Assembly: GCA_036377595.1 (NCBI GenBank)
Contig: DASUYB010000187.1
Coordinates: 1-56,630, forward strand
Reading direction: 5' to 3'
Length of the DNA stretch: 56,630 nt
From: Longimicrobium sp.
GTDB lineage: Bacteria; Gemmatimonadota; Gemmatimonadetes; Longimicrobiales; Longimicrobiaceae
Below, in pieces: positions 12,825 to 56,630 of the stretch. A program made the position numbers and the translations under genes. Within the stretch, counting starts at the first letter, position 1. The number at the start of each line of letters is the position of its first letter. The notes beneath the pieces are model-generated. The model worked only from the letters and a program-made list of their open reading frames with translations. It was not told where the DNA came from and did no database searches.

Positions 12825-13592
12825 ATGGATTTCGGCGGCCGTTCCAACCAGTACGACGACGAGGCGGGCTACCGCGGCCTGCAGCTGCGCGAGCGCATGG
12901 AGGCGCTCGGGCAGGTGTCGGCCGAGCTGATGCACGACCTGGCGATGGGGCTCAGCGCCATCGAGGCGCGCGCGCGCCTGGCCGCGGCCGAGGCGCGCGC
13001 CGGGCACGCCGTCACCGGCGACCTGGAGCAGGTGGTCGACGCCAGCGCCGACCTGAACCTGATGGTGCGCGACACGCTGGACGTGGTGCAGGGGCGCGCC
13101 ATCTCGCCCGAGGTGCGCTTCGACGTGGCCAGCGTGGTGGAGGGTGCGGTGGGACGCTTCTTCCGCGGCTCGCGCGGGGTGGAGGTGCGGCTGCGCACCG
13201 AGCTTCCCGGCACGGTGGAGGTGGAGGGGCGCGCGTCGTTCCTCTTCCGCTCGGTCATGAACCTGCTGTCCAACGCCATGCGCCACTGCCGCAGCGAGGT
13301 GCAGGTGGGCGTGAGCGTCGAGGATCCGCGCCGGATGGACGAGGACGCCGAGGCGGTGGTCTGCATCGACATCGAGGACGACGGCGCGGGGCTGGACCTG
13401 GCGCGCGCCGCCACCGTCTTCGAGCCCGCCCCCTTCGGCGACCCCGAGGGCGTGGGGATGGGGCTCTCGGCGGTGGCGTGGATGGTGGCGCAGCTGGGCG
13501 GCTGGGTGCGGCACCGCCCCGGCGACGAGCTGGGCGGCGCCTGCTTCGAGATCCGCCTGCCCGTGGCCGACCACGCCACGAGCACGGGCTGA
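12825..13592 (+). CDS. small soluble sensor histidine kinase-like protein
   Basis: The 255-residue product has a short dimerisation helix pair with a probable phospho-accepting His (AELMHDLAMGLSAIEARARL, His at about 37) and a complete HATPase_c domain: NLLSNAMRHC (N box), DIEDDGAGLDLA (G1) and GVGMGLSAVAWMVAQLGG (G2). There is no input domain or membrane segment, so it may receive signals through a partner. The H-box lacks the usual Pro, so autophosphorylation is not certain. No response regulator is adjacent. ATG 12825 was chosen because the open frame upstream is not protein-like. A strong terminator follows the gene. Confidence 0.8.
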   Translation: MDFGGRSNQYDDEAGYRGLQLRERMEALGQVSAELMHDLAMGLSAIEARARLAAAEARAGHAVTGDLEQVVDASADLNLMVRDTLDVVQGRAISPEVRFDVASVVEGAVGRFFRGSRGVEVRLRTELPGTVEVEGRASFLFRSVMNLLSNAMRHCRSEVQVGVSVEDPRRMDEDAEAVVCIDIEDDGAGLDLARAATVFEPAPFGDPEGVGMGLSAVAWMVAQLGGWVRHRPGDELGGACFEIRLPVADHATSTG

Positions 13593-13620
13593 TCTCCAGC
13601 ATCGGCAGACGAAACTCGGA

Positions 13621-13657
13621 GGAGCCGGCGGTCGAGCGACCGCCGGCTCTCCTTTTT
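13621..13657 (+). terminator. rho-independent terminator of the kinase gene
   Basis: The stem GGAGCCGGCGGTC / GACCGCCGGCTCTCC has a GAGC loop and is followed by TTTTT. This is the clearest classical terminator in the window. Confidence 0.85.
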
Positions 13658-13741
13658 CACACAGAGGGCACGGAGATCACGGAGGCACAGAGAACCAAAC
13701 GCGGTCCTCTACGCCTCCGTGATCTCCATGTCTCTGTGTGA
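13657..13741. repeat. H2-family long hairpin
   Basis: The ends TCACACAGAGGGCACGGAG / CTCCATGTCTCTGTGTGA enclose arms of about 35 bases; the centre is AACCAAACGCGGTCCTCT. It lies between convergent genes, as do the copies at 6833 and 19796. Confidence 0.8.
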
Positions 13742-13757
13742 CTTTCTGGATCGAGGA

Positions 13758-14483
13758 TTACGGGATCAGCCCGCCGACGGCGCCGGTGACGGACCCGCCG
13801 AGCGACCCGCCCGCGTTCAGCACGCCGCCCACCCCCGCCGTCGCGCCCGCGGCGACGTTGCCGGCCGCGTCCAGGCCGCCCGTGGAGCCGCGCAGCATCG
13901 CGTCCACGCTGCCGGTGGCGGCCAGCTGGGTGATGGCGCGGTCGCTGGCGTTGTGCTGTAGCCGCGAGGCGATTGCCGCCGCCGCGCCGTGGAAGTCGCC
14001 GCTTTCGGCGCCAAGGCTGGCGAGCGCGTTCAGCGACGCCGTCAGCGAGCGGCGGGCGGGCGCGCGCTCCGCGAGCACGGCGAGGTCCGCCTGCGACGCG
14101 CCGCGCGCTATCGCGTTCGCGCCGGCGACGATCTCCGCGCGCGAGGCGGTGCGCTCGCCGCGGCGGCCGAGGGCGTCGCGCGAGGCGTCGAGGCGCGCGT
14201 ACGCATCGGCTGCGGCGCGGGCGGCCTGCGCCTCGGACGCGCCGCGGGCTCGCGCCTCCGCCGCCGCGCGAGCGACGACCTCCGACGGCAGCCCGGCGTC
14301 CGCCGCGGCTCGCACGCTGACGTCCGCGCCCGCATTGGTACGCGAGCCGGCGGCGTTGGCCTGCGCGCGGGCGGACACATTCGTCCGCGCCTGTACCGTC
14401 GTCTGCGCCGCGAGCGCGGCGGGGGCGGCCAGCAGCGCAGCCGCCGCGATGTACGTGATCTTCCGCATCTTCTTCATCTCCAT
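13758..14483 (-). CDS. secreted alanine-rich protein
   Basis: The 241-residue product starts with a signal peptide (MEMKKMRKITYIAAAALLAAPAALAAQT) and is then almost wholly Ala/Arg/Gly/Ser. It looks like a long helical region ([20 protein letters not shown]) followed by a Gly-rich tail (GGVLNAGGSLGGSVTGAVGGLIP). No family is recognised. ATG 14483 has AGGAG 13 bases upstream; ATG 14477 is the alternative. It lies downstream of the lipoprotein gene at 14565 on the same strand and may be read through from its sigma-54-type promoter. Confidence 0.65.
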   Translation of the reverse strand: MEMKKMRKITYIAAAALLAAPAALAAQTTVQARTNVSARAQANAAGSRTNAGADVSVRAAADAGLPSEVVARAAAEARARGASEAQAARAAADAYARLDASRDALGRRGERTASRAEIVAGANAIARGASQADLAVLAERAPARRSLTASLNALASLGAESGDFHGAAAAIASRLQHNASDRAITQLAATGSVDAMLRGSTGGLDAAGNVAAGATAGVGGVLNAGGSLGGSVTGAVGGLIP

Positions 14484-42948: not shown

Positions 42949-43530
42949 TCACTCCTTCGCCGCGCCCCAGTGCAGCTCCCACTCGCAGAAGGCGTCGCCC
43001 TCGACGGAGCAGCGGACGTGGCGGACGGCGGGGTTCGCGCCGCCGGCCAGCTCGACCGCGCGCAGCAGCCCGCCCGTCTGCCGCCGGCAGAACACCGGGT
43101 CGCCGGGGAAGCCGACCAGCCGCAGCACCGCCCGCCCCGGCTCGGCCTCCACCACCTCCATGTTGCCGGGCTGGTAGTACAGCCGGAAGAGCGACACCGG
43201 CTGCACCAGGAACTCCAGCGGATCCTTCTTCTTCAGGATCCCGCCGTAGAGTTGCATCCCCAGCGACTGGATCGAGTACGCGCCCGACTTTTCCGGCCAG
43301 CCGGGATCGCGCCGGCCGATCTCCGCCTCCACCGCGTCCCACAGCGCGCGGAGAAGCTCGATCGGCACCTCCTCCGTCGCGGTGGCGGCCTCGACGCGGC
43401 GGCGCTCGCCGTCCCCCAGCCGCGCGAGGACGGCGGCGGCCGCGGCGGGACCGTGCTCGGCCTCGACGTAGCGCAGCGTGGAGCGGAGGGTCGACCCCTT
43501 CGCCAGCGGCTGGGTGGCGACGGCGCTCAT
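42949..43530 (-). CDS. DUF2378 (TIGR02265)-like protein
   Basis: The 193-residue soluble protein shows LAKGSTLRSTLRYVEAEHG at the start, VPIELLRALWDAVEAEIGRR in the middle and a C-terminal GDPVFCRRQTGGLLRAVELA ... VRHVRCSVEGDAFCEWELHW, like TIGR02265/DUF2378 proteins described from myxobacteria and the V4R/heme-NO-binding-like fold. Three Cys near the end could bind a ligand or metal. Its ATG overlaps the stop of the acyl-CoA ligase gene (ATGA), so the two are translationally coupled. A role in sensing a product of the ligase is speculation. Confidence 0.75.
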   Translation of the reverse strand: MSAVATQPLAKGSTLRSTLRYVEAEHGPAAAAAVLARLGDGERRRVEAATATEEVPIELLRALWDAVEAEIGRRDPGWPEKSGAYSIQSLGMQLYGGILKKKDPLEFLVQPVSLFRLYYQPGNMEVVEAEPGRAVLRLVGFPGDPVFCRRQTGGLLRAVELAGGANPAVRHVRCSVEGDAFCEWELHWGAAKE

Positions 43531-45044
43531 GGCCGGGCCTCCGCCAGCGCGCGGCGGTCCGGCTTCCCCGAGCCCAGCCGCGGGATCTCGCGGAGGAAGA
43601 CCACCGACTTCGGCACCTTGTATCCCGCCAGCCGCGCCCGTGCATGCGTCACCACGTCGACCTCCGTCACGTTCGTTTCACCGCGCGGGACGATGAAGGC
43701 GCGCCCCACTTCGCCCCAGCGCTCGTCGCGCACGCCCACGACGACGACCTCGGCCACGCCGGGGCAGTCGGCCAGCACCGCCTCGACCTCGCCGGGAAAG
43801 ACGTTCTCGCCGCCGGAGATGAACATCTCCTTGCGCCGCCCGCAGATGCGGAACGTGCCGTCGCCGTCGCGCGCGGCCAGGTCGCCGGTGCGCAGCCAGC
43901 CGTCGGACGTGAACGCTTCTGCAGTCTTTTCAGGATTTCTGAGATAGCCGGCGAACACCTGCGGTCCGCGCAGCAGCAGCTCTCCCGGCTCGCCGGGCGC
44001 GGGCTCGGTGCCGTCGTCGCGCGCGAGCCGCATCTCCAGCATCGGCACGGGCCAGCCGACGCACCCCGGCCGCCGTACCGCCTCGTCGGCGGGGATGGCG
44101 AAGCAGTTGGGGCCGCACTCGGTCAGCCCGTAGCCCTCGCGCAGCGCGTACCCCGCGGCGCGGACGCGCTCCGCCAGCGCGGCGGGGAGCGGCGCGCCGC
44201 CGGACATGAAGGTGCGCAAGCTGGGGAGCGGGCGGCCCCACTGCCGCCCCTCCATAAGCATCAGCAGCATGGTGGGCACGGTGAGGGCGACGGTGATCCC
44301 CTCCTCCGCGATCGCCTCGAGGTACCCGTCCGCGTCGAACTGGTCGAACAGCACCACCTTGCCGCCGCGGAACCAGAGCGGCGTGGCGAAGACGTTCCAT
44401 CCCCCCGTGTGGAAGAACGGCGTGGAGACGGGGGCGACGTCGCCGGCGCCGAGCTCCCACGCGGTGGTCGTCGCCACGGCGTTGTAGAAGATCTGCCGAT
44501 GCGGGAGGATGGCCCCCTTGGGCTGGCCCGTGCTGCCGGAGGTGTAGAGGACGAGCCAGGGATCGTCCGGCTCCACCTCCACGTCGTCCGCCGACGGGCC
44601 GCCGCGCGCCAGGAGCGTGGGTGCGTCGGCGTCGAGGTCGATCCACCGCGCGTCGGAGATGCCGCGGAGCGCGCCCTCGGCCCGGTCGCGAAAGCGGTCC
44701 TCGCCGAGCAGCAGCTTCGGGCGCGCGTCGGCGAGGATCGGCGCGAGCTCGGGCGCGGCCAGCCGCCAGTTGAGCGGGATCAGCGCCGCGCCGATGCGGC
44801 CGCAGGCGAAGAACGCGGCCGCCAGCTCGCTGCGGTTCCCCGCCAGCGTGGCCACGAGGTCGCCGCGGCCGACGCCCTGCGCGCGCAGCAGCGCGGCCCA
44901 GCGGTCGGCGGCGGCGTCGAGCTCGGGATACGTCAGCCGCTCACCGCGCGCGCGGTCCACCAGCGCGTGGCGCGCGCCCGCCAGCCGCCGCCAGAAGCGC
45001 AGCGGGTCGGGGCGGCGGGGGAAGGGGGGGACGGCTGTGGTCAT
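43527..45044 (-). CDS. acyl-CoA synthetase (AMP-forming)
   Basis: The 505-residue enzyme of the ANL superfamily activates a carboxylic acid with ATP to an acyl-AMP and then acyl-CoA. Motifs: P-loop LYTSGSTGQPKGA, HTGGWN, GYGLTECGPN (A5), the GWLRTGDLAARDGDG region, hinge FRICGRRKEMFISGGENVFP (A8) and catalytic Lys near the end in LGSGKPDRRAL. It looks like medium/long-chain fatty acid ligases. ATG 45044 was chosen; upstream codons are not protein-like. It is translationally coupled to the DUF2378-like gene. Confidence 0.9.
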   Translation of the reverse strand: MTTAVPPFPRRPDPLRFWRRLAGARHALVDRARGERLTYPELDAAADRWAALLRAQGVGRGDLVATLAGNRSELAAAFFACGRIGAALIPLNWRLAAPELAPILADARPKLLLGEDRFRDRAEGALRGISDARWIDLDADAPTLLARGGPSADDVEVEPDDPWLVLYTSGSTGQPKGAILPHRQIFYNAVATTTAWELGAGDVAPVSTPFFHTGGWNVFATPLWFRGGKVVLFDQFDADGYLEAIAEEGITVALTVPTMLLMLMEGRQWGRPLPSLRTFMSGGAPLPAALAERVRAAGYALREGYGLTECGPNCFAIPADEAVRRPGCVGWPVPMLEMRLARDDGTEPAPGEPGELLLRGPQVFAGYLRNPEKTAEAFTSDGWLRTGDLAARDGDGTFRICGRRKEMFISGGENVFPGEVEAVLADCPGVAEVVVVGVRDERWGEVGRAFIVPRGETNVTEVDVVTHARARLAGYKVPKSVVFLREIPRLGSGKPDRRALAEARP

Positions 45045-45380: not shown

Positions 45381-46343
45381 TCACTTCGAATGCGCGAGGA
45401 GGAAGTCGAGGATGAGGCGCGATGCGTCGGGGCCGCGGGCGTCGGCAAAGGTGCCCTCGGGCGAGCCGCCGGACCACGCGTGGCCCAGCCCGTCCACGAT
45501 CACCAGCTCGATCGCGGGCTTGCCGTCCGCGGCGTTCCAGCGGGTGCGCTCGACGGCCAATCCCCCCTCCGTCGACCGTTGCGCGGGAATGGAGGAGAGG
45601 CCGAGCACGCCGGCCCACTGCGCCGCCAGCTGCCGCGAGTTCAGCGGGCTGACCACCGCGTCCGCGCCGCCGTGGATGGCGATCAGCGGCATGGCGCGCC
45701 TGCCCGCCGCGTCCTGCAGCGCATAGGCGAGGATGGCGGGATCGGTGCTCCCCCCGCGCATCACGCTCAGCGCGTGCGGCACGTCGGAGGCGGCGCGGTA
45801 CGGGATGCCGCTGTGCGAGCCCACGGCGGCGAACAGCTCGGGGTACGACGCCGCCACGATCACCGCCATCGCCGCGCCCGCGGACACGCCGGCGACGTAG
45901 ACGCGCCTGGGATCGACCGCGCGCGCGGCCATCACCTCGCGCGTGATGCCGGCGATCACCGCGGGCTCGCCGCGCTGCACGGCCTGGTGTGCGGGATCGT
46001 ACCAGCTCCAGCACTTCTGCACCTGGTGCTCGGCCTTCTGCTCGGGCCAGGCGACGACCACCCCCGCGCGTGCCGCCAGCTCGTTGAAGCGCGTGCCCCG
46101 AGCGAAATCGTCGGGGTCCTGCGTGCAGCCGTGCAGCATCACCACCAGCGGCGCCGGGCGGCTGGTGTCGAGGCCGTCGGGGACGAACAGCCGGTAGCGC
46201 CGCGTGCCCGCCTCGCCCGCATACGTGTGCCACTCGAAGGTGCCCGGCGCCCGCGCGGGCGCTTGCGGGGCGGCGGGCTCCGGCGCGGTGCTGGTCATCG
46301 TCACGGCTGCCAGGATGGTGATGAGCGCGCGGTGGATCGTCAT
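45381..46343 (-). CDS. PHB depolymerase family esterase (paralogue 1)
   Basis: The 320-residue alpha/beta hydrolase has an N-terminal hydrophobic signal (MTIHRALITILAAVTMTSTA). It has the LVVMLHGCTQDPDDFARGTR oxyanion region, the nucleophile elbow VYVAGVSAGAAMAV (Ser), PLIAIHGGADAVVSP (Asp) and GLGHAWSGG (His), as in LpqC/PhaZ-type secreted esterases that cut polyhydroxyalkanoates, cutin-like or feruloyl esters. The HGCTQ and catalytic Trp-rich patch (CWSWYDP) are typical. Start at ATG 46343. The next gene upstream on the strand is a paralogue. The exact polymer is unknown. Confidence 0.87.
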   Translation of the reverse strand: MTIHRALITILAAVTMTSTAPEPAAPQAPARAPGTFEWHTYAGEAGTRRYRLFVPDGLDTSRPAPLVVMLHGCTQDPDDFARGTRFNELAARAGVVVAWPEQKAEHQVQKCWSWYDPAHQAVQRGEPAVIAGITREVMAARAVDPRRVYVAGVSAGAAMAVIVAASYPELFAAVGSHSGIPYRAASDVPHALSVMRGGSTDPAILAYALQDAAGRRAMPLIAIHGGADAVVSPLNSRQLAAQWAGVLGLSSIPAQRSTEGGLAVERTRWNAADGKPAIELVIVDGLGHAWSGGSPEGTFADARGPDASRLILDFLLAHSK

Positions 46344-46635: not shown

Positions 46636-47652
46636 CTAAAAGCCGAAGAAGTCGACGATGATCTGGCTGGCGTCGAGGGCGCAGGCGTCGGTGTAGCTGC
46701 CGGCGCTGCTGCCGCCCGGCCAGCGATGGTCCATCCCGCTGATCACGTACCGGCGCACCACCGTCTGCCCGTTCGAGCTGTTGTTGAAGTCGGTGCGCGT
46801 GTAGCTGCGGCACGCCGTCCCGTTCACCGTGGCGTCGGCGGCGAAGTCTACGTTGCCGTTGTCGGCGCCGTCGCTCGCCAGGTCGTCGGTCTGCGTCCAC
46901 TGCTGCGCGGTCTGCGTCGCGTTCACCGGGTTCACCGTGCCGTCCGATGAGCCGTGGAAGACGAGCGTGGGGATCACCCGGCGTCCCCCCGTGGCCTGCG
47001 CGTTCCAGCAGTCGGTGCCGCGCGTGTTGGGGTCGTAGCTGCTGCCGAAGAACATGGCATTCGTCCCCCCGCCCGCCGTCGTCGCCGCCTTGTACATCAC
47101 GCCGGCGACCTCGGCCAGCTTGCGCACCCTGTCGGGATAGGTGCACGCCATGATCGTCGCCATCGCCGCGCCGGCGGAGAAGCCGGCCACGCCCACGCGC
47201 GTGCCGTCGACGGCGTAGTTGGCCTTCACCCAGTCGATCATCCCCGCGATCACGTACGGCTCACCGCTACCGCGCGACTGGTTGGAGGTGTAGAACCAGT
47301 TCCAGCAGTCCGATGGGTTGTACGCCGTCCCCTGCTCCGGATACAGGACGATGAAGTTGCGGCTCTCGGCGAACGAGTTCATCCGCGTGCCGGCCGCGAA
47401 GTCGTAGCCGTCCTGCAGGCAGCCGTGCAGCATCACCATCATCGGCCGCGCGGTGCCGGTGTAGGTGGAGGGGACGTAGACACGGAAGTAGCGCGCGCCG
47501 TACACGCTGTTGTAGACCCCGTCGACCCACGTCGCAGCGAGCCGCGGCTTCTGCGGCGATGCGACGTCCTCGCGCGCGGCGGTGGGCGCGTCGGCGCAGG
47601 CACCCAGCGCGAGCGCGGCGGCCAGGAGCACAGCGGTGCGGGTGCGGCGCAT
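46636..47652 (-). CDS. PHB depolymerase family esterase lipoprotein (paralogue 2)
   Basis: The 338-residue product has a lipoprotein signal (MRRTRTAVLLAAALALGAC, lipobox LGAC). The catalytic domain parallels the esterase at 45381: MMVMLHGCLQDGYDFAAGTR, the elbow VGVAGFSAGAAMATIMA (Ser), TLVFHGSSDGTVNPVN (Asp) and GMDHRWPGGSSAG (His). It carries extra Cys (CWNWFY, TDCWNAQ, NGTACRS, TDACALD) that may form disulfides outside the cell. ATG 47652 has GGAGGAG six bases upstream. With its paralogue it forms a two-gene esterase cluster, close to a MaoC hydratase and acyl ligases. Confidence 0.87.
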   Translation of the reverse strand: MRRTRTAVLLAAALALGACADAPTAAREDVASPQKPRLAATWVDGVYNSVYGARYFRVYVPSTYTGTARPMMVMLHGCLQDGYDFAAGTRMNSFAESRNFIVLYPEQGTAYNPSDCWNWFYTSNQSRGSGEPYVIAGMIDWVKANYAVDGTRVGVAGFSAGAAMATIMACTYPDRVRKLAEVAGVMYKAATTAGGGTNAMFFGSSYDPNTRGTDCWNAQATGGRRVIPTLVFHGSSDGTVNPVNATQTAQQWTQTDDLASDGADNGNVDFAADATVNGTACRSYTRTDFNNSSNGQTVVRRYVISGMDHRWPGGSSAGSYTDACALDASQIIVDFFGF

Positions 47653-47892: not shown

Positions 47893-47935
47893 CCCAACGC
47901 ACTCACGCACTCCTGCACTCACGCACTCGTCACTT
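47893..47935. repeat. GCACT-rich short tandem array
   Basis: CACTCACGCACTCCTGCACT CACGCACTCGTCACTTC has a 7-8-base period and runs into the end of the TonB receptor gene. Confidence 0.6.
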
Positions 47936-50392
47936 CGTGTCCACCCGCACGCCGAGGAACACCATCGTGCCGATGGCCGGCATGTTGACCATCTCGGTGT
48001 GCTTCACGCCGAACCCGCACGACGCACCCTCGTCGGGGAGCGTGGGGTCGTTCGCGCGGCAGTTGAACAGGTTGGCCACCGCCAGGTTGATCTGCGAGTG
48101 GAACTGCGGCACCCGGTAGCCCACGTTCAGGTCCAGCGTGTTGAACGTGGGGATGCGGCCCTTGTTGATGCCGGAGTTGAAGTAGTAGCCGTTCACGTAG
48201 CGGAAGGTGGCCCCGCCCGACCAGCGGCCCAGGTCGCGCGCGTGCATCCCCAGCGTCCACTTGGTCACCGGCGAGTTCAGCGCGGTGGCCTCGGTCTCGG
48301 AGGCGATGTTGGTGTCGATCCCCTCGATGTTGTCGAGCTTGAGCAGCGACACCGTGCCGGTGAAGTCGACCCGGGGGTTCAGCACGTAGCTGAACGCCGC
48401 GTCGGTGCCGTAGATGGTGGCGTTGCCCAGGTTGAAGTAGGTCAGCACCACCTGCGGCTGCGCGGCCTCGCTCACGTACGGCTGGTTGGTGGCGCCGTTG
48501 TAGGCCACCGTGGCCGCGCCACCCGTGGCGTACGGGTTGGCCACGGTCACCAGCGGGCTCAGGAAGTTCTGGTAGCGCGAGTAGTACGCGGCCACGTCCA
48601 CGAACAGCCGGCCGTTGATGAGCCCCTTGTAGCCCGCCTCCCAGGTGGTGTTGCGCTCGGGGACCAGCGGCTTGTACTCGCGCACCAGCGAGTTGTCGGA
48701 CGCGCGGCGCACGGTGATGCCGTCGCGGTTGCCGAACACGCCGATCACCGACACGAAGTTGGGGATCCAGAAGTTCGTCTGCAGCGTGCTGGGGCTCTTG
48801 AACGCGCGGTTCCAGAAGAGCCGGAAGGTGTGCCCCTGCGCCGGGGTGAAGAGCACGCCGGCCTTGGGCGAGAACTGCGGATCGTAGTTCTCGTGGTCGT
48901 CGTAGCGCGCGGCCAGCAGCAGGCGCAGCTGCGGCAGCAGCGGCGTCTCGGTCTGCGCGTACACGCCCCACTGGTCGATCTTCAGCGCCTCGCCGGTCAG
49001 GCGGTCGGTCAGCCACTGGCGGTCGCTGCTCACCACGTCGTGGCGATACTGCCCGCCCCACGTCACCTGCGTGTTCAGCAGCGGAAGGACGCGGAAGTTG
49101 TTCTGCAGCTCGGCCGCGTACAGCTGCCCGTCGCTGGGCCAGTCGCTCATCCGCCGCACCGAGTCGTCGCTCACCGTCGCCGGCGCGGTCGCGCGGTTGG
49201 TGGTGTAGCGGTTGGCGGCGTAGCTCTCGCCCGCGTTGCTCTCGGTGCGGTAGGCGCTGACGTACCAGCGCGGGTTGGTCGCCCGCAGCTGCAGGACGTT
49301 GTAGGTCCAGTCCACCAGCTGGTTGCGGCCGACGTTCGTCTGCCCCACGCCGTTGGTGCGGCTGTAGCCGCCGGTCAGGGACACCTGCCCGTCGCCGAAG
49401 TAGCGCAGCACCTGGCCGTAGCCGCGCAAAACGCTGCTGTCCCAGTTCAGACCGGTGGTGTCGCCGACGCTCGTCTCCCAGGGGCTGGTGGCGGCCGCGG
49501 TGGCGTGGATGCGGTTGGACCAGTCGTTGAACGAGTTCCACTCGCCGCTGAGCTTGTATCCCCAGTTGCCGCGCGTGCCGGCGATGCGGCCCTGCAGGTC
49601 CATGTACTCGCGGTTGCCGCCCGTCACCTCCAGCGACAGCCCGGGGTAGTCGCGCGGATCCTTGCTCTGCAGCGTCAGCACGCCGTTCGAGGCGTCGGCG
49701 CCGTACAGCGCGCTGCCGGGGCCCACCACCACCTCGATCCCCGCCAGGTCGATCTTGGGGACGGGGGTGAAGGCGCCCGCCGGCAGCCCGTTCTCGGGAA
49801 GCACGGCGATGCGGCCGTCCTCCAGCATCAGCATCCGGTTGTTGAACGAGGAGTTGAAGCCGCGCGCGTTGACCGCCACGGCCGTCATCCCCACCTGCAC
49901 GAAATCGAGACCCGTCGCCTGCTTGAGCGCGCCCACGAAGGCGTTCCCCGGCGTCTCCTCGAGCTGCTGCGCGCCCACGCGCGTGACGGTGGCGGGCGAC
50001 TCGGAGCGGCGCTCGGCCCGGCGCGAGGCCGAGACGACCATGGCGTCCAGCTCCACGTTGTTCTCCTGGAGCTGGATGGAGACGAGCGTCTCCTCGCCCG
50101 GGCGCACGGTGACGTCGCTGGTATTGGCGACGAAGCCGGGCATGGAGACCCGGAGCCGGTGCACGCCCTGCGGCACACCGCCCAGGGTGAACTGCCCCAG
50201 CGTGTTGGATACGGTGGAGAAGCGGGTGCCGACGATGGCCACCTGCGCCGCGGAGACGGCGCGGCCCTCGGGCCCGGAGACGGTGCCGCGCACGGTGCCG
50301 GTCTGCGCCGCCGCGAGCGACGGGACCAGCGCCAGTGCCGCGGCCAGCAGGAGTGCGCGCCAGGTGTGGCGCAGGGTGCCGCTGCTGCTCAT
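47930..50392 (-). CDS. TonB-dependent outer-membrane receptor
   Basis: The 820-residue receptor has a signal peptide (to about SLAAAQT), a carboxypeptidase-regulatory-like N-terminal extension (TGTVRGTVSGPEGRAVSAAQ ... VSMPGFVANTSDVTVRPGEE, about 32-115), a plug domain (ERRSESPATVTRVGAQQLEE ... IEVVVGPGSALYGADASNGV, about 130-240) and a long barrel. The VYAQTETPLLPQLRLLLAARYD and FSPKAGVLFTPAQGHTFRLFWN segments are typical barrel strands. It imports an unknown large ligand using TonB energy; no TonB/ExbBD gene is near. ATG 50392 has GGAG eight bases upstream. Confidence 0.92.
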   Translation of the reverse strand: MSSSGTLRHTWRALLLAAALALVPSLAAAQTGTVRGTVSGPEGRAVSAAQVAIVGTRFSTVSNTLGQFTLGGVPQGVHRLRVSMPGFVANTSDVTVRPGEETLVSIQLQENNVELDAMVVSASRRAERRSESPATVTRVGAQQLEETPGNAFVGALKQATGLDFVQVGMTAVAVNARGFNSSFNNRMLMLEDGRIAVLPENGLPAGAFTPVPKIDLAGIEVVVGPGSALYGADASNGVLTLQSKDPRDYPGLSLEVTGGNREYMDLQGRIAGTRGNWGYKLSGEWNSFNDWSNRIHATAAATSPWETSVGDTTGLNWDSSVLRGYGQVLRYFGDGQVSLTGGYSRTNGVGQTNVGRNQLVDWTYNVLQLRATNPRWYVSAYRTESNAGESYAANRYTTNRATAPATVSDDSVRRMSDWPSDGQLYAAELQNNFRVLPLLNTQVTWGGQYRHDVVSSDRQWLTDRLTGEALKIDQWGVYAQTETPLLPQLRLLLAARYDDHENYDPQFSPKAGVLFTPAQGHTFRLFWNRAFKSPSTLQTNFWIPNFVSVIGVFGNRDGITVRRASDNSLVREYKPLVPERNTTWEAGYKGLINGRLFVDVAAYYSRYQNFLSPLVTVANPYATGGAATVAYNGATNQPYVSEAAQPQVVLTYFNLGNATIYGTDAAFSYVLNPRVDFTGTVSLLKLDNIEGIDTNIASETEATALNSPVTKWTLGMHARDLGRWSGGATFRYVNGYYFNSGINKGRIPTFNTLDLNVGYRVPQFHSQINLAVANLFNCRANDPTLPDEGASCGFGVKHTEMVNMPAIGTMVFLGVRVDTK

Positions 50393-50550
50393 GGAAGGGT
50401 CTCCATGTTGTGGGACACGTGTGCGCACGCGGTCGCGCTCGCACGGTTGGACTTCACGCTCGCGGTCCTTTCGGTAAGGCGACCGCGGTTCCTGTCGAAT
50501 CGTCGCGAGAGCTTCCTGCCGTCCTGCCGGCCGTTCGCGCCGCGGCGGGC

Positions 50551-50689: not shown

Positions 50690-51121
50690 TCAACCCGTCG
50701 TGGAGGGGGTCGGCGACTCCGGGACCATCACCACCGCCTCGCCGTCGATCACGCGCTCGCCGTGGTGGTTGGTGACGGTGGTGGCCAGGCGCACCCGCCG
50801 CTTCGCCGCGATCACCTCCGCCACCTCGACCCGCGCGGTCACCGTGTCGCCGATCTTCACCGGGCGCAGGAAGCGCAGGTTCTGCGAGAGGTAGATGGTG
50901 CCCGGCCCGGGGAGCCTCATCGCCAGCACGGTGCTGATGAAGCCGGCCGACAGCATCCCGTGCGCGATCCGCCCGCCGAACATCCCCTGCTCCGCCTCCA
51001 CCGCGTTGACGTGCGCGGGGTTGAAGTCGCCCGTGATGCCGGCGAACAGCACCACGTCCGTCTCCGTCACCGTCTTGCTGAACTCGGCCGTCTGCCCGAC
51101 GGCGATGTCTTCCAGGTGCAT
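50690..51121 (-). CDS. MaoC-like (R)-specific enoyl-CoA hydratase domain protein
   Basis: The 143-residue hot-dog-fold protein resembles PhaJ, which hydrates enoyl-CoA to (R)-3-hydroxyacyl-CoA, a link between beta-oxidation and polyhydroxyalkanoate synthesis. The catalytic hydratase-2 motif is present: FAGITGDFNPAHVN (Asp and His), with GRIAHGMLSAGFISTVLAM after it, and the strand-rich RFLRPVKIGDTVTARVEVAEVIAAKRRV. The ATG at 51121 starts MHLEDIAVGQTAEF, as in the family. Length (about 135-160) fits a complete single-domain enzyme. It lies between the receptor and the symporter genes on the same strand. Confidence 0.88.
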   Translation of the reverse strand: MHLEDIAVGQTAEFSKTVTETDVVLFAGITGDFNPAHVNAVEAEQGMFGGRIAHGMLSAGFISTVLAMRLPGPGTIYLSQNLRFLRPVKIGDTVTARVEVAEVIAAKRRVRLATTVTNHHGERVIDGEAVVMVPESPTPSTTG

Positions 51122-51424: not shown

Positions 51425-52915
51425 TCACACGCTCATCACCAGCGCCACGTCCGGATCGATCTGCGACGCGGCGCGGGCGCGGGTCAGCCAGCTCACGGCG
51501 AAGAACACGAGGATCGAGAGCACCAGCGACAGCCCGCTCACCGTCACCCCCGTCGGGAAGCTGTAGACCTTGAAGTACGCCAGCGTCTCGAAGGTCAGCG
51601 TCACCACGATCCCCGTGGCGATGCTGGCGATCGCCCCCTCCTTCGTCGCCCCCTCCCAGTTCAGGCCGATGGCCAGCGCGGGAACGAGCGTGCAGGCGAA
51701 CAATCCCCATCCGAAGATCCCCAGGAACGCCACCATCGACCCCGACACCTGCGCCAGCAGCGCGGCGGCGATCGCCAGCACCGCGGTGGAGATGCGTCCC
51801 CACAGCAGCTCGTTCCTGGCCGTGCGCCCGAACGCCAGCGGCAGGTCGTGCGTCACCACCGCCGCGGCGATGTTGATGAACGAGTTCACCGCGCTCATCG
51901 TGGCCGCGGCCACGCCGCTGAACACCAGCGCCGCCAGGATCACCGGGGTGAAGCGCAGCAGGAACGTCGGCGTGGCCGCGTCGGGCGCGGAGAGCGGGGC
52001 CAGCGCGCCGCGGGCCACCAGCGACTTCACGCCCACGCCCACGCCGAAGTAGAGGAGGAGGACCAGGATCAGCCCCAGCGTCTTCAGCAGCGGATACCAG
52101 CGCAGCTGCAGCGGGTCCTTCAGCATGTAGTACTTGTGCACGCCCTGCGGCTGGCCCAGCGACCCCATCCCGAAGACGAAGAAGAAGGAGAGCGCCACCA
52201 GCGGCGTGGCCTTCCCCCACGGCGACAGGAAGCCGGGGTCGTGCGCCAGGATGTGCGTGGAGATGCCGCCCAGCCCGCCGCCGACCTTGAGGACGGCGAG
52301 GAAGACGAGGACGGAGGCCGCCGCCATCAGCGTCCCCTGGAACACGTCCACGTAGATCCCCGCCAGGATGCCGCCCGCCACCGAGTAGGCCAGCGTCACC
52401 CCCATCCCGATCCAGATCCCCCACCCCATCCCCACGCCGAAGATGGCGTCGATCACCACGCCCATCGCCAGCGCGTTGGTGGCCATGTAGCCCAGGATGC
52501 CAATGAGGATGCCGATGCCCGACAGCCCCTGCGCCAGCGGGCTGCGGTAGCGCGCGCCGATGGCGTCGGGCACGGTCATCAGCCCGCGCGCCTCGCCCAG
52601 CAGGCGCATCCGCTTGGCCAGCACCCACGCGCCCATCACGTTCGTCACCGACGCCGGGAGGACGATGTACATCGCCGCCAGGCCGATGGTGTAGATGAGC
52701 CCCGGCCCGCCGATGAACGCGAACCCCGAGACCGAGGTGGAGACGGAGGCCACGGTGAGCGCGACCAGGCCGATCCCGTGGCCCGCGACGAAGAAGTCGC
52801 TCGCCGTCTTCGTCCTGCGCGTCGCCCAGACGCTGATCAGCACCACCACCGCGAAGTACGCGGCGGCCACGGCGATGATGGCGGGATGGCTGACGTGCTG
52901 CATGGCCGGGTTCAC
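51425..52915 (-). CDS. sodium:solute symporter (SSF family)
   Basis: The 496-residue protein has about 13 transmembrane helices. It opens with a periplasmic N-terminus and helix IIAVAAAYFAVVVLISVWAT, followed by KTASDFFVAGHGIGLVALTV, a family pattern, then GYMATNALAMGVVID, GGILAGIYVDVFQGTLM and FSGVAAATMSAVNSFINIAAA (Na+ site Ser/Thr helix). It co-transports a solute with Na+; acetate, proline or other acids are options. The GTG start at 52915 overlaps the stop of the small membrane protein gene (GTGA), with GGAG seven bases upstream. Acyl-CoA ligase and KASIII-like genes precede it, so an organic or fatty acid substrate is a reasonable guess. Confidence 0.9.
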   Translation of the reverse strand: MNPAMQHVSHPAIIAVAAAYFAVVVLISVWATRRTKTASDFFVAGHGIGLVALTVASVSTSVSGFAFIGGPGLIYTIGLAAMYIVLPASVTNVMGAWVLAKRMRLLGEARGLMTVPDAIGARYRSPLAQGLSGIGILIGILGYMATNALAMGVVIDAIFGVGMGWGIWIGMGVTLAYSVAGGILAGIYVDVFQGTLMAAASVLVFLAVLKVGGGLGGISTHILAHDPGFLSPWGKATPLVALSFFFVFGMGSLGQPQGVHKYYMLKDPLQLRWYPLLKTLGLILVLLLYFGVGVGVKSLVARGALAPLSAPDAATPTFLLRFTPVILAALVFSGVAAATMSAVNSFINIAAAVVTHDLPLAFGRTARNELLWGRISTAVLAIAAALLAQVSGSMVAFLGIFGWGLFACTLVPALAIGLNWEGATKEGAIASIATGIVVTLTFETLAYFKVYSFPTGVTVSGLSLVLSILVFFAVSWLTRARAASQIDPDVALVMSV

Positions 52916-53439
52916 GCGCGGGCTCCAGGAAGGGCGGGGACCCGCTCGGCGGGGGGCGAGGCTTCGGACTGCGCGGGAGATGACGATCCGTCGCGCGCGC
53001 GCCTCCACGCCTCGCCGGCCAGGCGCACGCGCTCCAGGTCGGCCGCGTTCAGCGTCTGCTCGTGGAAGGTCAGCGCGTAGGCGATCGGCAGGACGACGAT
53101 CGGGAAGATGCCGATGCCGTAGATCACGATGGCCGCGCGCAGCGGGAGGCCCAGGTAGAGCGGCGCGCCCGCCGATTCCACCGCGGGAAGCACGAGGGCC
53201 AGCGCGAAGCCCGCGGCCAGCACGACGAACGAGAAGGCGAAGGGGATGGCCAGCCGCCCGATGCGCCCGCCGCGCGCGGCGCCCAGCACCATCACCGCCA
53301 CCAGCGCGGTGGGGATGCCGATGGCCATGGGCCAGGGTGCCCACCCCGGCGCGCCGCCGGGGAGGAACGCCGACGCGTACGAGGCCGCGATGGCCAGCGC
53401 CGCGAGCGCGAGGGCGGTGAGTGCGAGGCGCTTGGTCAT
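52912..53439 (-). CDS. four-helix membrane protein coupled to the symporter
   Basis: The 175-residue protein has four hydrophobic helices (about 4-26, 36-57, 68-91 and 106-128; the last reads IVIYGIGIFPIVVLPIAYAL) and a polar C-terminal tail with TFHEQTLNAADLERVRLAGE and a Pro/Ser-rich end. It is joined by ATGA to the acyl ligase before it and by GTGA to the symporter after it. Small membrane partners (for example DUF485/DUF4212 proteins) often precede SSF genes; this one is larger and I do not match it to those families. A symporter subunit is the best inference. Confidence 0.7.
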   Translation of the reverse strand: MTKRLALTALALAALAIAASYASAFLPGGAPGWAPWPMAIGIPTALVAVMVLGAARGGRIGRLAIPFAFSFVVLAAGFALALVLPAVESAGAPLYLGLPLRAAIVIYGIGIFPIVVLPIAYALTFHEQTLNAADLERVRLAGEAWRRARDGSSSPAQSEASPPAERVPALPGARA

Positions 53440-55232
53440 CCTGCGGCGGGGTAGAGGGCGTCCAGCTCGCCGCGGAACTTCTCGGCGACCACGGTGCGGC
53501 GGAGCTTCAGCGTGGGCGTGAGGTCGCCGTCCTCGGCGGTCAGCTCGCGGCCGATCACCACGAAGCGGCGGATCTGCTCGGTGCGGCTGAGGTTGGCATT
53601 GACGCGATCGACGGCCGCCTGCACCTGCGACAGCAGCTCGGGGTGATGGACGACGACGCCATTCCCATCGACCTCGTCCCCCTGCCCGTCGGCCCACAGG
53701 CGGAGCATCGACGGGCGCAGGGAGATGAGGGCGGAGATGTACTTGCGGCCCTCGCCGTAGAGCATGGCCTGGCCGATCCACGGGTCCTGCGCCAGCGCGG
53801 CCTCGATGGGCAGCGGCGCCACCTTCTTCCCCGTGCTGAGCGCGATCAGCTCCTTCTTGCGCCCGCTCACGCGCAGCGAGCCGTCGTCCAGCAGCCGCCC
53901 GAGATCTCCCGTCAGCAGCCACCCGTCCGGCGTGAACGCGTCCGCCGTCGCCTGGGCGCGGCCGTGGTAGCCGCCGAAGCTCAGGTCGCCGCGCCGCACC
54001 AGGATCTCGCCGTCCTCGGCAATGCGGATCTCCGTCCCCGGCATCGCCGGCCCCGCGGCGTCGAAGCGGTACGCGTCCGGCCGGTTCATGGCGACGCACA
54101 GGTGCTCCGTCAGCCCGTACGCGCCGAGGACGGTGATCCCCAGCGCGTCGAGGTACTCGGCGACGTCCACGGGAAGCGCGGCGCCGCCGCTGGTCGCGCG
54201 GCGCACGCGGCCGCCGAAGAGGGCGCGGGTGCGCTCGAACAGCGGGGCGCCGACCTCGCGCCACTCCTGCTCCAGCGTCGGCGGGACGAAGCGGCGGCCC
54301 TGGACCAGCTTCGAGCGCGCGGTGCCGAGCTCGATGGTCCGGTCCCACCGCTTCCGCCCCTCGCCCGCGGAGGCCATGTGCTCGGCGTGCAGCGTCTCGT
54401 ACGCCTTCTCGTAGAAGCGCGGCAGCCCGCCGAAGAGCGTGGGGCCGTAGACGCGCGCCGCCTCCCACACGCGCGTGTGGTCGGGCACCAGCGCCGCCTC
54501 CATCCCGCTGACGATCCGCGTGTAGAGGCCGAACACGCGCTCGGCGGCGTGGCAGAAAGGGAGGAAGGAGAGCGTGGTGTCGCGCTCGGTCAGCCCCAGC
54601 GCCTCGATGATCGACTCGGCCGACGCGAGGAGGTTGCGGTGCGGGAGCGCGGCGCCCTTCGGCTCGCCCGTGGATCCCGACGTGTAGATCAGGATCGCCG
54701 TATCGTTGGGGGATGCGGCCGCGACGCGGCGGTCGACCTCCGCGCCGGCGCCGGCCGTCAGCGCGTCGTCGCCCATCCCCAGCCACGCGTCCCAGCTCAC
54801 CACGTCGTCGCCGAAGACATCGATGGCGACGATGGTGCGCAGGCGCGGGAGCTCGTCGCGGACGGCGAGGACCTTCGCCAGCTGCTCCGCGTCGTCCACC
54901 ACCAGGACCCGGGCGCCGCAGTCGGCCGCGATCTGCCGCACCTGCGCGGGCGCGCTGGTGGGATAGACGCCCGCGCACACGCCGCCGGCCATCAGCACGC
55001 CCAGGTCGGCGATGGGCCAGACGGTGCTCGTTCCCGCCAGCACGGCGACGGACTCGCCCGGCCGCACCCCGTCCGCCACCAGCGCGGCGGCGAAGCGGCG
55101 CGACTCGGCGGCCCACTCGCCCCAGGTCAGCGCCTCGTCGCGCGGCGCGCCGCCGGCGGCCAGCGTGCGCCAGGCGATGCGGCCGGGGTGGCGCGCGGCG
55201 CGGGCCAGGAAGGCACGGGCGGCGGTCGTCAT
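53436..55232 (-). CDS. long-chain fatty-acyl-CoA/acyl-ACP synthetase
   Basis: The 598-residue ANL-superfamily ligase is the long type seen in FadD15/AasC-like enzymes. Motifs: ILIYTSGSTGEPKGAALPHR (P-loop), the DTTLSFLPFCHAAERVFG gate, VLGAYGLTEHLCVAMNRPDA (A5), WLLTGDLGRLLDDGSLRVSG (A7), RKKELIALSTGKKVAPLPIE (A8) and a C-terminal LTPTLKLRRTVVAEKF, where the Lys matches the acylation Lys of long-chain enzymes. It activates a fatty acid for the KASIII-like protein or for lipid use. It is coupled by ATGA at both ends, to the KASIII-like gene and to the membrane protein gene. Confidence 0.9.
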   Translation of the reverse strand: MTTAARAFLARAARHPGRIAWRTLAAGGAPRDEALTWGEWAAESRRFAAALVADGVRPGESVAVLAGTSTVWPIADLGVLMAGGVCAGVYPTSAPAQVRQIAADCGARVLVVDDAEQLAKVLAVRDELPRLRTIVAIDVFGDDVVSWDAWLGMGDDALTAGAGAEVDRRVAAASPNDTAILIYTSGSTGEPKGAALPHRNLLASAESIIEALGLTERDTTLSFLPFCHAAERVFGLYTRIVSGMEAALVPDHTRVWEAARVYGPTLFGGLPRFYEKAYETLHAEHMASAGEGRKRWDRTIELGTARSKLVQGRRFVPPTLEQEWREVGAPLFERTRALFGGRVRRATSGGAALPVDVAEYLDALGITVLGAYGLTEHLCVAMNRPDAYRFDAAGPAMPGTEIRIAEDGEILVRRGDLSFGGYHGRAQATADAFTPDGWLLTGDLGRLLDDGSLRVSGRKKELIALSTGKKVAPLPIEAALAQDPWIGQAMLYGEGRKYISALISLRPSMLRLWADGQGDEVDGNGVVVHHPELLSQVQAAVDRVNANLSRTEQIRRFVVIGRELTAEDGDLTPTLKLRRTVVAEKFRGELDALYPAAG

Positions 55233-56236
55233 CGCGCGCTCCGCGGGTTCCAGCGCAGGGCGACGCATCCCATCGACAGCCCCGCGCCCGAGCCGGTAAG
55301 CAGCACCAGGTCGCCCGCGTGGAGACGGCCCGCCTTCACGGCGTCGTCCAGCGCCATCGGCAGGCAGGCGGAGCCGGTGTATCCCCACTTCTCCATCACC
55401 GTGTGCGCCTTCGACATAGGCACGCCGAGGCGATCCATCACCATCTCGATGGTCGATCGATTCACCTGCGTCCACAGCCACAGATCGACGTCGTCGACCG
55501 TCGTGCCGATGCGGGAGAGGACGGAGCGGGCGATGCGCGGCCACCCCTCCTCGTTGACCTCCTTGGGATACTTCTGGACGAAGCGGAGGCGGTTGCGCAC
55601 GCCCGCGTTCAGCACGTCCACGGTGATGGGCTCCGCCGTCCCCCCCGCGAACACGCCCATCCCCAGCGCCAGCGACCCGTCCGCGTACAGCTCGCTGGCG
55701 AGGATGCCGGGCTCGTCGGCGAGCTCCACCACCACCGCGCCCGCGCCGTCGGCGAAGATCGTCACCGTCTTCTTGTCCGCGGGGTCGAGGAACTTCGACA
55801 TCGCGTAGACGGCGACGACGAGGACGCGCTCGTAGCGCTCGTCCGCGCGCACGTACTTCCACGCCGCGTCGAGCGCGGTGGCGAAGCCGGCGCAGGCGCT
55901 GTTCACGTCGAACGTCCCCGCCGTGTTCCGCATCCCCAGCCGCCCGTGCAGGACCGACGAGGTGGCGGGGGAGACGTACTCGGGCGTGTCGGTGGAAACG
56001 ATGAGCAGGTCGACGTCTTCCGCGGACAGCCCGGCGTCCGCGAGGGCGGCGCGGGCGGCCTGCTCGGCCAGGTCGGCGGTGGACTCGCCGGGCGCGCACC
56101 AGTGCCGCTCGCGGATGCCCAGCGTGTTCGACACGAACGCGTCGATGTCCTCGCCCAGCGCGGCGGACAGCTCCGCGTTGGCGACGACCCGCGCGGGGAC
56201 GAACGAACCGGTTCCGCTGATGGTGGCGTGGCGCAA
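55229..56236 (-). CDS. 3-oxoacyl-ACP synthase III-like protein with altered catalytic triad
   Basis: The 335-residue thiolase-fold protein aligns along its length with FabH/KASIII. The nucleophile is present (NSACAGFATALDAAW, Cys115). In FabH the other two residues are His in PHQANLRI and Asn in GNTSAAS; here the positions read WTQVNRST (Thr256) and WGYTGSACL (Tyr286). The GSGAGLSMGCVALRW end is normal. Classic Claisen condensation with decarboxylation of malonyl-ACP is therefore doubtful; an acyltransferase, acyl-condensing or ester-forming role is more likely. No ATG is available near the family start; TTG 56236 gives the right length. It is coupled by ATGA to the ligase gene, which suggests they act in sequence. 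Confidence 0.85.
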   Translation of the reverse strand: MRHATISGTGSFVPARVVANAELSAALGEDIDAFVSNTLGIRERHWCAPGESTADLAEQAARAALADAGLSAEDVDLLIVSTDTPEYVSPATSSVLHGRLGMRNTAGTFDVNSACAGFATALDAAWKYVRADERYERVLVVAVYAMSKFLDPADKKTVTIFADGAGAVVVELADEPGILASELYADGSLALGMGVFAGGTAEPITVDVLNAGVRNRLRFVQKYPKEVNEEGWPRIARSVLSRIGTTVDDVDLWLWTQVNRSTIEMVMDRLGVPMSKAHTVMEKWGYTGSACLPMALDDAVKAGRLHAGDLVLLTGSGAGLSMGCVALRWNPRSAR

Positions 56237-56240
56237 CGGA

Positions 56241-56270
56241 AAGTCCTGAGTCCCAAGTCCTAAGTCCTGG
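56241..56270. repeat. AAGTCCT short tandem array
   Basis: AAGTCCTGAGTCCCAAGTCC and TAAGTCCTGG: three imperfect units between the KASIII-like start and the LacI-type stop. Confidence 0.55.
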
Positions 56271-56630
56271 ATGACGGCTCGGCCGTGGTGCCGCGGCGGA
56301 CGAGCTTCACCGGGAGAAGCTTCGCGCCCTTCACCGTCACCTCCTGGCCGTCGAGCTGGCGGAGGAGGAGGCGTGCGGCACGGGCGCCCAGCTCGCGCGC
56401 GGGAATGGCGACGGTGGTCAGCTCGGGGGTGACGAAGCTCGCCATCTCCACGTCGTCGCACCCCACGATCGACAGCTCGCCGGGAACGGAGACGCGGGCC
56501 GTCAGCGCCGCCTTCAGCGCCCCCATGGCGATCAGGTCGTTGGCGCAGAAGACGCCGGTCGGACGCTCGCTCGAAGCGAGGAGACTCTTCATCGCCTTCT
56601 GCCCGCCGCTGACCGTGGGCGGTGTCCGGC
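56260..56630 (-). CDS. LacI-family regulator, C-terminal part (cut by the window edge)
   Basis: The frame is open to the right edge. The visible 123 residues are the second half of the periplasmic-binding-protein-like core: VSGGQKAMKSLLA, RPTGVFCANDLIAMGALKAA (conserved ND), GELSIVGCDDVEMASFVTPE (conserved DD) and LTTVAIPARELGARAARLLL, then a short tail. These are signatures of LacI/GalR repressors that bind sugars or nucleosides; the helix-turn-helix lies beyond the window. An in-frame ATG at 56592 is not the true start. It lies directly upstream of the KASIII-ligase-symporter operon on the same strand and could control it. Confidence 0.88.
   Translation of the reverse strand, partial: RTPPTVSGGQKAMKSLLASSERPTGVFCANDLIAMGALKAALTARVSVPGELSIVGCDDVEMASFVTPELTTVAIPARELGARAARLLLRQLDGQEVTVKGAKLLPVKLVRRGTTAEPSSRT

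Follow-up and report, generated by a model that had tools for sequence, protein, structure and literature searches.

The locus and its operon

The window, by which we mean the whole stretch of 56,630 nucleotides that was analysed, contains near its end an operon on the minus strand that runs from the end of a LacI-type regulator, through a KASIII-like gene (KAS), an acyl-CoA ligase, a small protein, an SSF symporter, a MaoC-type protein, a TonB receptor, two PHB-type esterases and a second ligase, to a 193-aa protein. The features, in operon order, are as follows (L161, named in two of the lines, is the locus of genome G227, discussed below).

56260..56628, minus strand: LacI-type regulator, C-terminal part, truncated where the window stops; in Gemmatimonadota loci it lies immediately upstream of KAS
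55229..56236, minus strand: KASIII-fold protein (KAS), 335 aa, TTG start, Cys115/Thr256/Tyr286
53436..55232, minus strand: AMP-forming acyl-CoA ligase; its start overlaps the KAS stop codon, ATGA
52912..53439, minus strand: small conserved protein, apparently membrane-bound; its start overlaps the ligase stop codon; a relative, L161:11350-11835, has no Pfam match
51425..52903, minus strand: SSF sodium:solute symporter
50690..51121, minus strand: MaoC-type hydratase, predicted (R)-specific enoyl-CoA hydratase
47930..50428, minus strand: TonB-dependent outer-membrane receptor
46636..47652, minus strand: type 1 scl-PHA (PHB) depolymerase, copy 2, putatively secreted; NF050058 282 bits, cut-off 150
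45381..46343, minus strand: type 1 scl-PHA (PHB) depolymerase, copy 1, putatively secreted; NF050058 309 bits, cut-off 150
43527..45044, minus strand: second AMP-forming acyl-CoA ligase
42949..43530, minus strand: 193-aa conserved protein; its start overlaps the second ligase; a similar protein, L161:10718-11323, lies in the G227 locus

Overlaps of 4 nt join KAS to the ligase and the ligase to the small protein. NF050058 models extracellular type 1 short-chain-length PHA depolymerases, and the start sequences of both copies resemble signal peptides. The closest solved relative of copy 1, over its length, was LtPHBase (8DAJ, E=3e-70), which hydrolyses PHB (PMC11544428). Neither the 193-aa protein (42949-43530) nor the small protein (52912-53439), nor their tested relatives, had a significant match to a Pfam family. 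Judged by its genes, the locus is probably a set for the use of extracellular short-chain PHA (PHB) and (R)-3-hydroxybutyrate, an assignment that is well supported for the Gemmatimonadota.

The original prediction for this DNA had rightly coupled KAS to the ligase, and it missed the surrounding PHB-utilisation operon, the main clue. The coupling was borne out by the ATGA overlap in the window, by the presence of the ligase at 35 of 41 loci, and by the absence of both genes from the otherwise retained G227 locus. The description of the ligase as long-chain did not hold, as it scored 335 bits against the 950-bit cut-off of its best model, FadD11, and the rest of the operon indicates short (R)-3-hydroxy acids released from PHB. 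In most other phyla the ligase at the same place in the locus differs in type from that of the Gemmatimonadota and Acidobacteriota, so that “long-chain” is not a conserved property.

Association with PHB depolymerases in the Gemmatimonadota

In a test sample of 200 genomes drawn from across the Gemmatimonadota, KAS (E<=1e-75) was present in 16, and a strong match to PF10503, the PHB-type esterase (E<=1e-15), in 18. All 16 KAS genomes had the esterase, as against 2 of the 184 others (Fisher p ~9e-22), and the corresponding figures by genus were 12/12 and 1/80 (p ~4e-14); both p values ignore shared ancestry and, since the genomes are related, overstate their independence. KAS and the esterase lay within ~10 kb of each other on one contig in 13 of the 16 genomes. 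They were on different contigs in G027, G152 and G209, and in G152 both contig ends hold parts of the ligase region, and the two contigs may adjoin.

Two genomes, G175 (on a 5.3-kb contig) and G227, had the esterase and no KAS, from which it follows that KAS is not essential. The G227 locus (L161, G227:C95:120000-139900) keeps the LacI regulator, TonB receptor, esterase, small proteins, symporter and MaoC, with KAS and its ligase missing from that position, a joint absence that fits the two acting as a unit. KAS-free copies of the locus were also sought in the Longimicrobiaceae, where only fragments on short contigs were found.

The active site and its conservation

The AlphaFold model of the KASIII-like protein (pLDDT 95.4, pTM 0.94) had solved FabHs as its best structural matches, with TM-scores of ~0.9 and sequence identities of ~30%, and two FabH-family features, the KASIII fold and a Cys nucleophile at the KASIII position, are present. 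A match to Thiolase_N was weak and local (27.3 bits, residues 52-148), and a check of the sequence found none of the thiolase catalytic motifs (GHP, CxG). FabH and OleA rely on a His/Asn pair, and FabH-type decarboxylation requires it. The original prediction held that this pair was replaced, and its three residues, Cys115 (NSACAGF), Thr256 (WTQVN) and Tyr286 (WGYTGSA), stand at exactly the positions it gave, the gene being on the minus strand; in residue alignments to solved FabHs, the His of HQAN is matched by Thr256 and the Asn of GNTS by Tyr286. A replacement His or Asn was sought across the alignment of the clade to which the protein belongs, and none was found: the most conserved His, H278, occurs in 79 of 94 members, and no His is invariant among them. 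Ser89 aligns with FabH Phe87 (the pocket Phe supplied by the partner chain) and, by the alignment offset, with OleA Glu117, and it is predicted to project from the partner subunit into the active site.

The clade was sampled as 80 named loci from a scan of 84,980 species genomes, together with others from related genomes. C115, T256, Q257, N259 and Y286 were kept in 94/94 members, and the one sequence in the set with His and Asn, L003, is the FabH-like paralogue from the genome of the window itself. A further ~15 residues are invariant in the 94 and specific to the clade, including D83, S89, N112, Y144, M146, F219, N228, W232, G288, C291 and S316, the last of which stands where most FabHs have Phe. 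His and Asn were both kept in all 21 FabH-like paralogues, most of which came from the same genomes as clade members, and a FastTree tree recovered the clade (36/36) with moderate support of 0.88 and the paralogues (21/21) with support of 0.99. Alignment column 261, the position of the Arg used by FabH for ACP docking, held Arg in 19/21 of the paralogues versus 7/36 of the clade members, and this loss suggests that the substrates of the clade may be CoA rather than ACP esters. The invariance of Cys, Thr and Tyr in 94/94 relatives argues against both chance and decay; the gene is no decayed copy, and belongs to an old KASIII-fold clade with a rebuilt FabH active site. Since His and Asn are invariantly replaced throughout the clade, and with them the means of decarboxylation and of holding an enolate, and since the docking Arg is mostly lost, malonyl-ACP condensation is unlikely, in agreement with the original prediction.

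FabH, as modelled by TIGR00747 and NF006829, shares with the clade its fold, its Cys nucleophile and ~30% identity; it differs in that the clade has Thr256 for His, Tyr286 for Asn, Ser89 for Phe87 and Ser316 for Phe304, and mostly lacks the docking Arg. The KASIII-like protein scored 242.6 with NF006829 (cut-off 249) and 218.5 with TIGR00747 (cut-off 292.1), and other clade members, while below the TIGR00747 cut-off, passed that of NF006829 with 259.1 and 252.5. Scores so near to or above those of the general FabH models mean that automatic annotation tends to name clade members as fatty-acid-synthesis enzymes, and no clade-specific model was found in NCBIfam.

Neighbourhoods in other phyla

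Members of the clade were found in the Gemmatimonadota, Acidobacteriota, Bacteroidota, Ignavibacteria, Chloroflexota, Myxococcota, Bdellovibrionota, other Deltaproteobacteria and one bin labelled Hodarchaeota (Asgard). In that bin (L116, G075:C73), KAS is accompanied by two ligases, two hydrolases, a second KASIII and MaoC, and lies beside ABC-transporter genes; transfer or contamination of the bin is possible.

Among 41 neighbourhoods (40 regions of <=20 kb and the window), a ligase was present in 35, an alpha/beta hydrolase in 27, a FabG-like SDR in 24, an SSF symporter in 20, a TonB receptor in 13, and MaoC and the PHB esterase in ~10 each, counts in which ORF calling in GC-rich DNA misses some neighbours and with which a tblastn map agrees in outline. 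The SDR occurred alone in 22 loci, MaoC alone in eight and both in two, a near exclusion that would be expected if SDR and MaoC were alternative means of processing (R)-3-hydroxyacyl-CoA. The nearest solved relatives of the SDR include a (3R)-hydroxyacyl-CoA dehydrogenase. A canonical thiolase motif was present in only 3 of the 41 neighbourhoods, and in two operons of Bacteroidota type a canonical acetyl-CoA acetyltransferase adjoins KAS (L124:7958-9136 and L132:17797-18999). The intracellular alpha/beta hydrolase of other phyla is mostly missing from the mapped Gemmatimonadota operons, and in many Bacteroidota loci the encoded hydrolase begins with a signal or lipoprotein-like sequence.

Outside the Gemmatimonadota, PF10503 genes were found <=15 kb from KAS in the Acidobacteriota (G044), Bacteroidota (G048) and Bdellovibrionota (G066, a Bdellovibrionales bin), and in Marinoscillum furvescens SDR-KAS-SSF-ligase is adjoined by a PHB esterase that carries an fn3 domain and, at its C-terminus, a secretion signal. 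Most loci outside the Gemmatimonadota have no PF10503 gene nearby, so their substrate could be another short acid, and PHB is there only suggested.

Several of these loci hold further families of their own. At L061:10633-12237, and in relatives at several loci, there is a ~530-aa family with no Pfam match that resembles an outer-membrane barrel; a lipoprotein-like hydrolase often comes after it. A ~475-aa family with no significant Pfam match (L136:13594-15021) occurs at 10 loci, next to either the TonB receptor or the SDR. A second KASIII-like gene adjoins the first at L096:10948-11973, L070:10038-11072, L087:1092-2111 and L171 (~13231-14244), and in the first three it has Cys, a His where FabH has its Asn, and an Asp at +5, which is the CerJ/ChlB3 triad; the L096 copy exceeds the cut-off of PRK06840, an NCBI model named 3-oxoacyl-ACP synthase.

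In its gene types the locus also recalls OleABCD, where a KASIII-like protein likewise has genes for an AMP-ligase, an alpha/beta hydrolase and an SDR-type protein as neighbours. That identity was rejected on the residues and on the score with PRK09258, the OleA comparison (110 bits, cut-off 285): OleA keeps His/Asn and Glu117, whereas the clade has Thr, Tyr and, by phmmer alignment offset, Ser89. The SDR of the clade is, moreover, of the FabG kind, and its locus has uptake and depolymerase genes.

Proposed function

The KASIII-like protein fits neither FabH, OleA nor CerJ/ChlB3. Our preferred reading, to which we give a probability of roughly 0.55, is that it is a non-decarboxylating KASIII-fold acyltransferase of 3-hydroxybutyrate (3HB)/PHB catabolism that works with its ligase. 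In this Longimicrobium genome, the secreted depolymerases would release 3HB and its oligomers, the TonB receptor and SSF symporter would import both, and the neighbouring ligase would form a CoA thioester. Cys115 would then accept and hand on the (3-hydroxy)acyl group, CoA being its most likely acceptor or donor, with no decarboxylative condensation, the hydroxyls of Tyr and Thr standing in for His and Asn, and MaoC (the SDR in other phyla) would take (R)-3-hydroxyacyl-CoA onward. The other steps are assignable to the ligase, to MaoC or the SDR and, in L124 and L132, to a thiolase, and the protein has neither His/Asn nor Cys-His-Asp, which leaves to KAS an acyl transfer via Cys115 near the ligase step. 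The suggestion in the original prediction that the protein passes an acyl group on is plausible. The described PHB route comprises PhaZ, PhaY, Bdh, AacS or ScoAB, and thiolase (PMC7830162). The clade loci contain counterparts of its steps of secreted depolymerase, dehydrogenase and CoA activation, and differ in tying a KASIII variant to a ligase; the route has no KASIII-like step, and the one proposed here is therefore without precedent.

General acyl transfer in the 3HB/PHB pathway is ranked highest, and within it there are two concrete candidate reactions, each of which, taken as the actual one, we hold to be rather unlikely. The first is a CoA-dependent cleavage of 3HB oligomers, in which the ligase would activate the oligomer, Cys115 attack an internal ester, Tyr286 protonate the alkoxide and CoA release 3HB-CoA, with the energy of the ester kept as a thioester. 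It accounts for the pairing with a ligase, for the loss of the enolate-stabilising residues and retention of the Cys (a Tyr that donates a proton to an alkoxide could replace the residues that bind an enolate), and for the occurrence of KAS in both the SDR and MaoC versions of the locus, and the general lack of an intracellular hydrolase in the mapped Gemmatimonadota operons is in its favour. The KASIII fold, however, offers no precedent for it, and the signal- or lipoprotein-bearing hydrolases of many Bacteroidota loci could cut oligomers before import. A Cys/Thr/Tyr enzyme of this fold that cleaves ligase-activated 3HB oligomers with CoA is thus, as a specific claim, doubtful; if true, it would give the fold a new reaction and PHB assimilation a new step.

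The second candidate is an acetoacetyl-CoA thiolase of KASIII fold, in which Cys115 would attack acetoacetyl-CoA, the hydroxyls of Thr256 and Tyr286 would hold the enolate, and CoA would take the acetyl group. Thiolysis requires a Cys and no decarboxylation, and with the ligase and SDR such an enzyme would complete the path from 3HB to acetyl-CoA in loci where the canonical motif is so rarely found. Against it, donors of the His/Asn type for the enolate are missing, and the canonical thiolases inside the L124 and L132 operons supply the step separately there, which weakened the idea that KAS has displaced a thiolase.

It is improbable that the protein is a KASIII-like acyltransferase similar to CerJ or ChlB3, carrying acyl groups from a CoA or ACP donor to a hydroxyl or to ACP within a pathway for lipids or secondary metabolites. 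The fold, the conserved Cys and the ligase partner would agree with this, and in CerJ and ChlB3 the KASIII fold does serve acyl transfer rather than condensation, with a CoA or ACP thioester as donor there and in DpsC. CerJ/ChlB3-type transfer relies on Cys-His-Asp (PMC9573744), however, while the KASIII-like protein has Tyr286 at the His position and Cys291 at the +5 Asp position; across CerJ, ChlB3 and DpsC the sets are Cys-His-Asp or Ser-His-His, and the clade has no conserved His. The operon, with its transporters, secreted depolymerases and MaoC, also looks catabolic. That the protein is a FabH-like condensing enzyme of the ordinary sort in which some residues have been exchanged, or a scaffold that has lost catalysis, is the least probable of all despite the overall FabH fold and identity, for both catalytic residues are replaced in every clade member, the ~15 other clade residues are invariant, the Cys is never lost, and separate FabH-like paralogues exist.

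Significance

The open-access literature searched contained no description of the clade or of its locus. Databases probably misname its members in many phyla, though their neighbours suggest catabolism. The clade provides a marker gene for the use of PHB and 3-hydroxyacids among scavengers and predators, and a way of testing which reactions the KASIII fold can support without the His and Asn of its best-known chemistries. The KASIII-like gene may also mark an undescribed step in the breakdown of a bioplastic, PHB.
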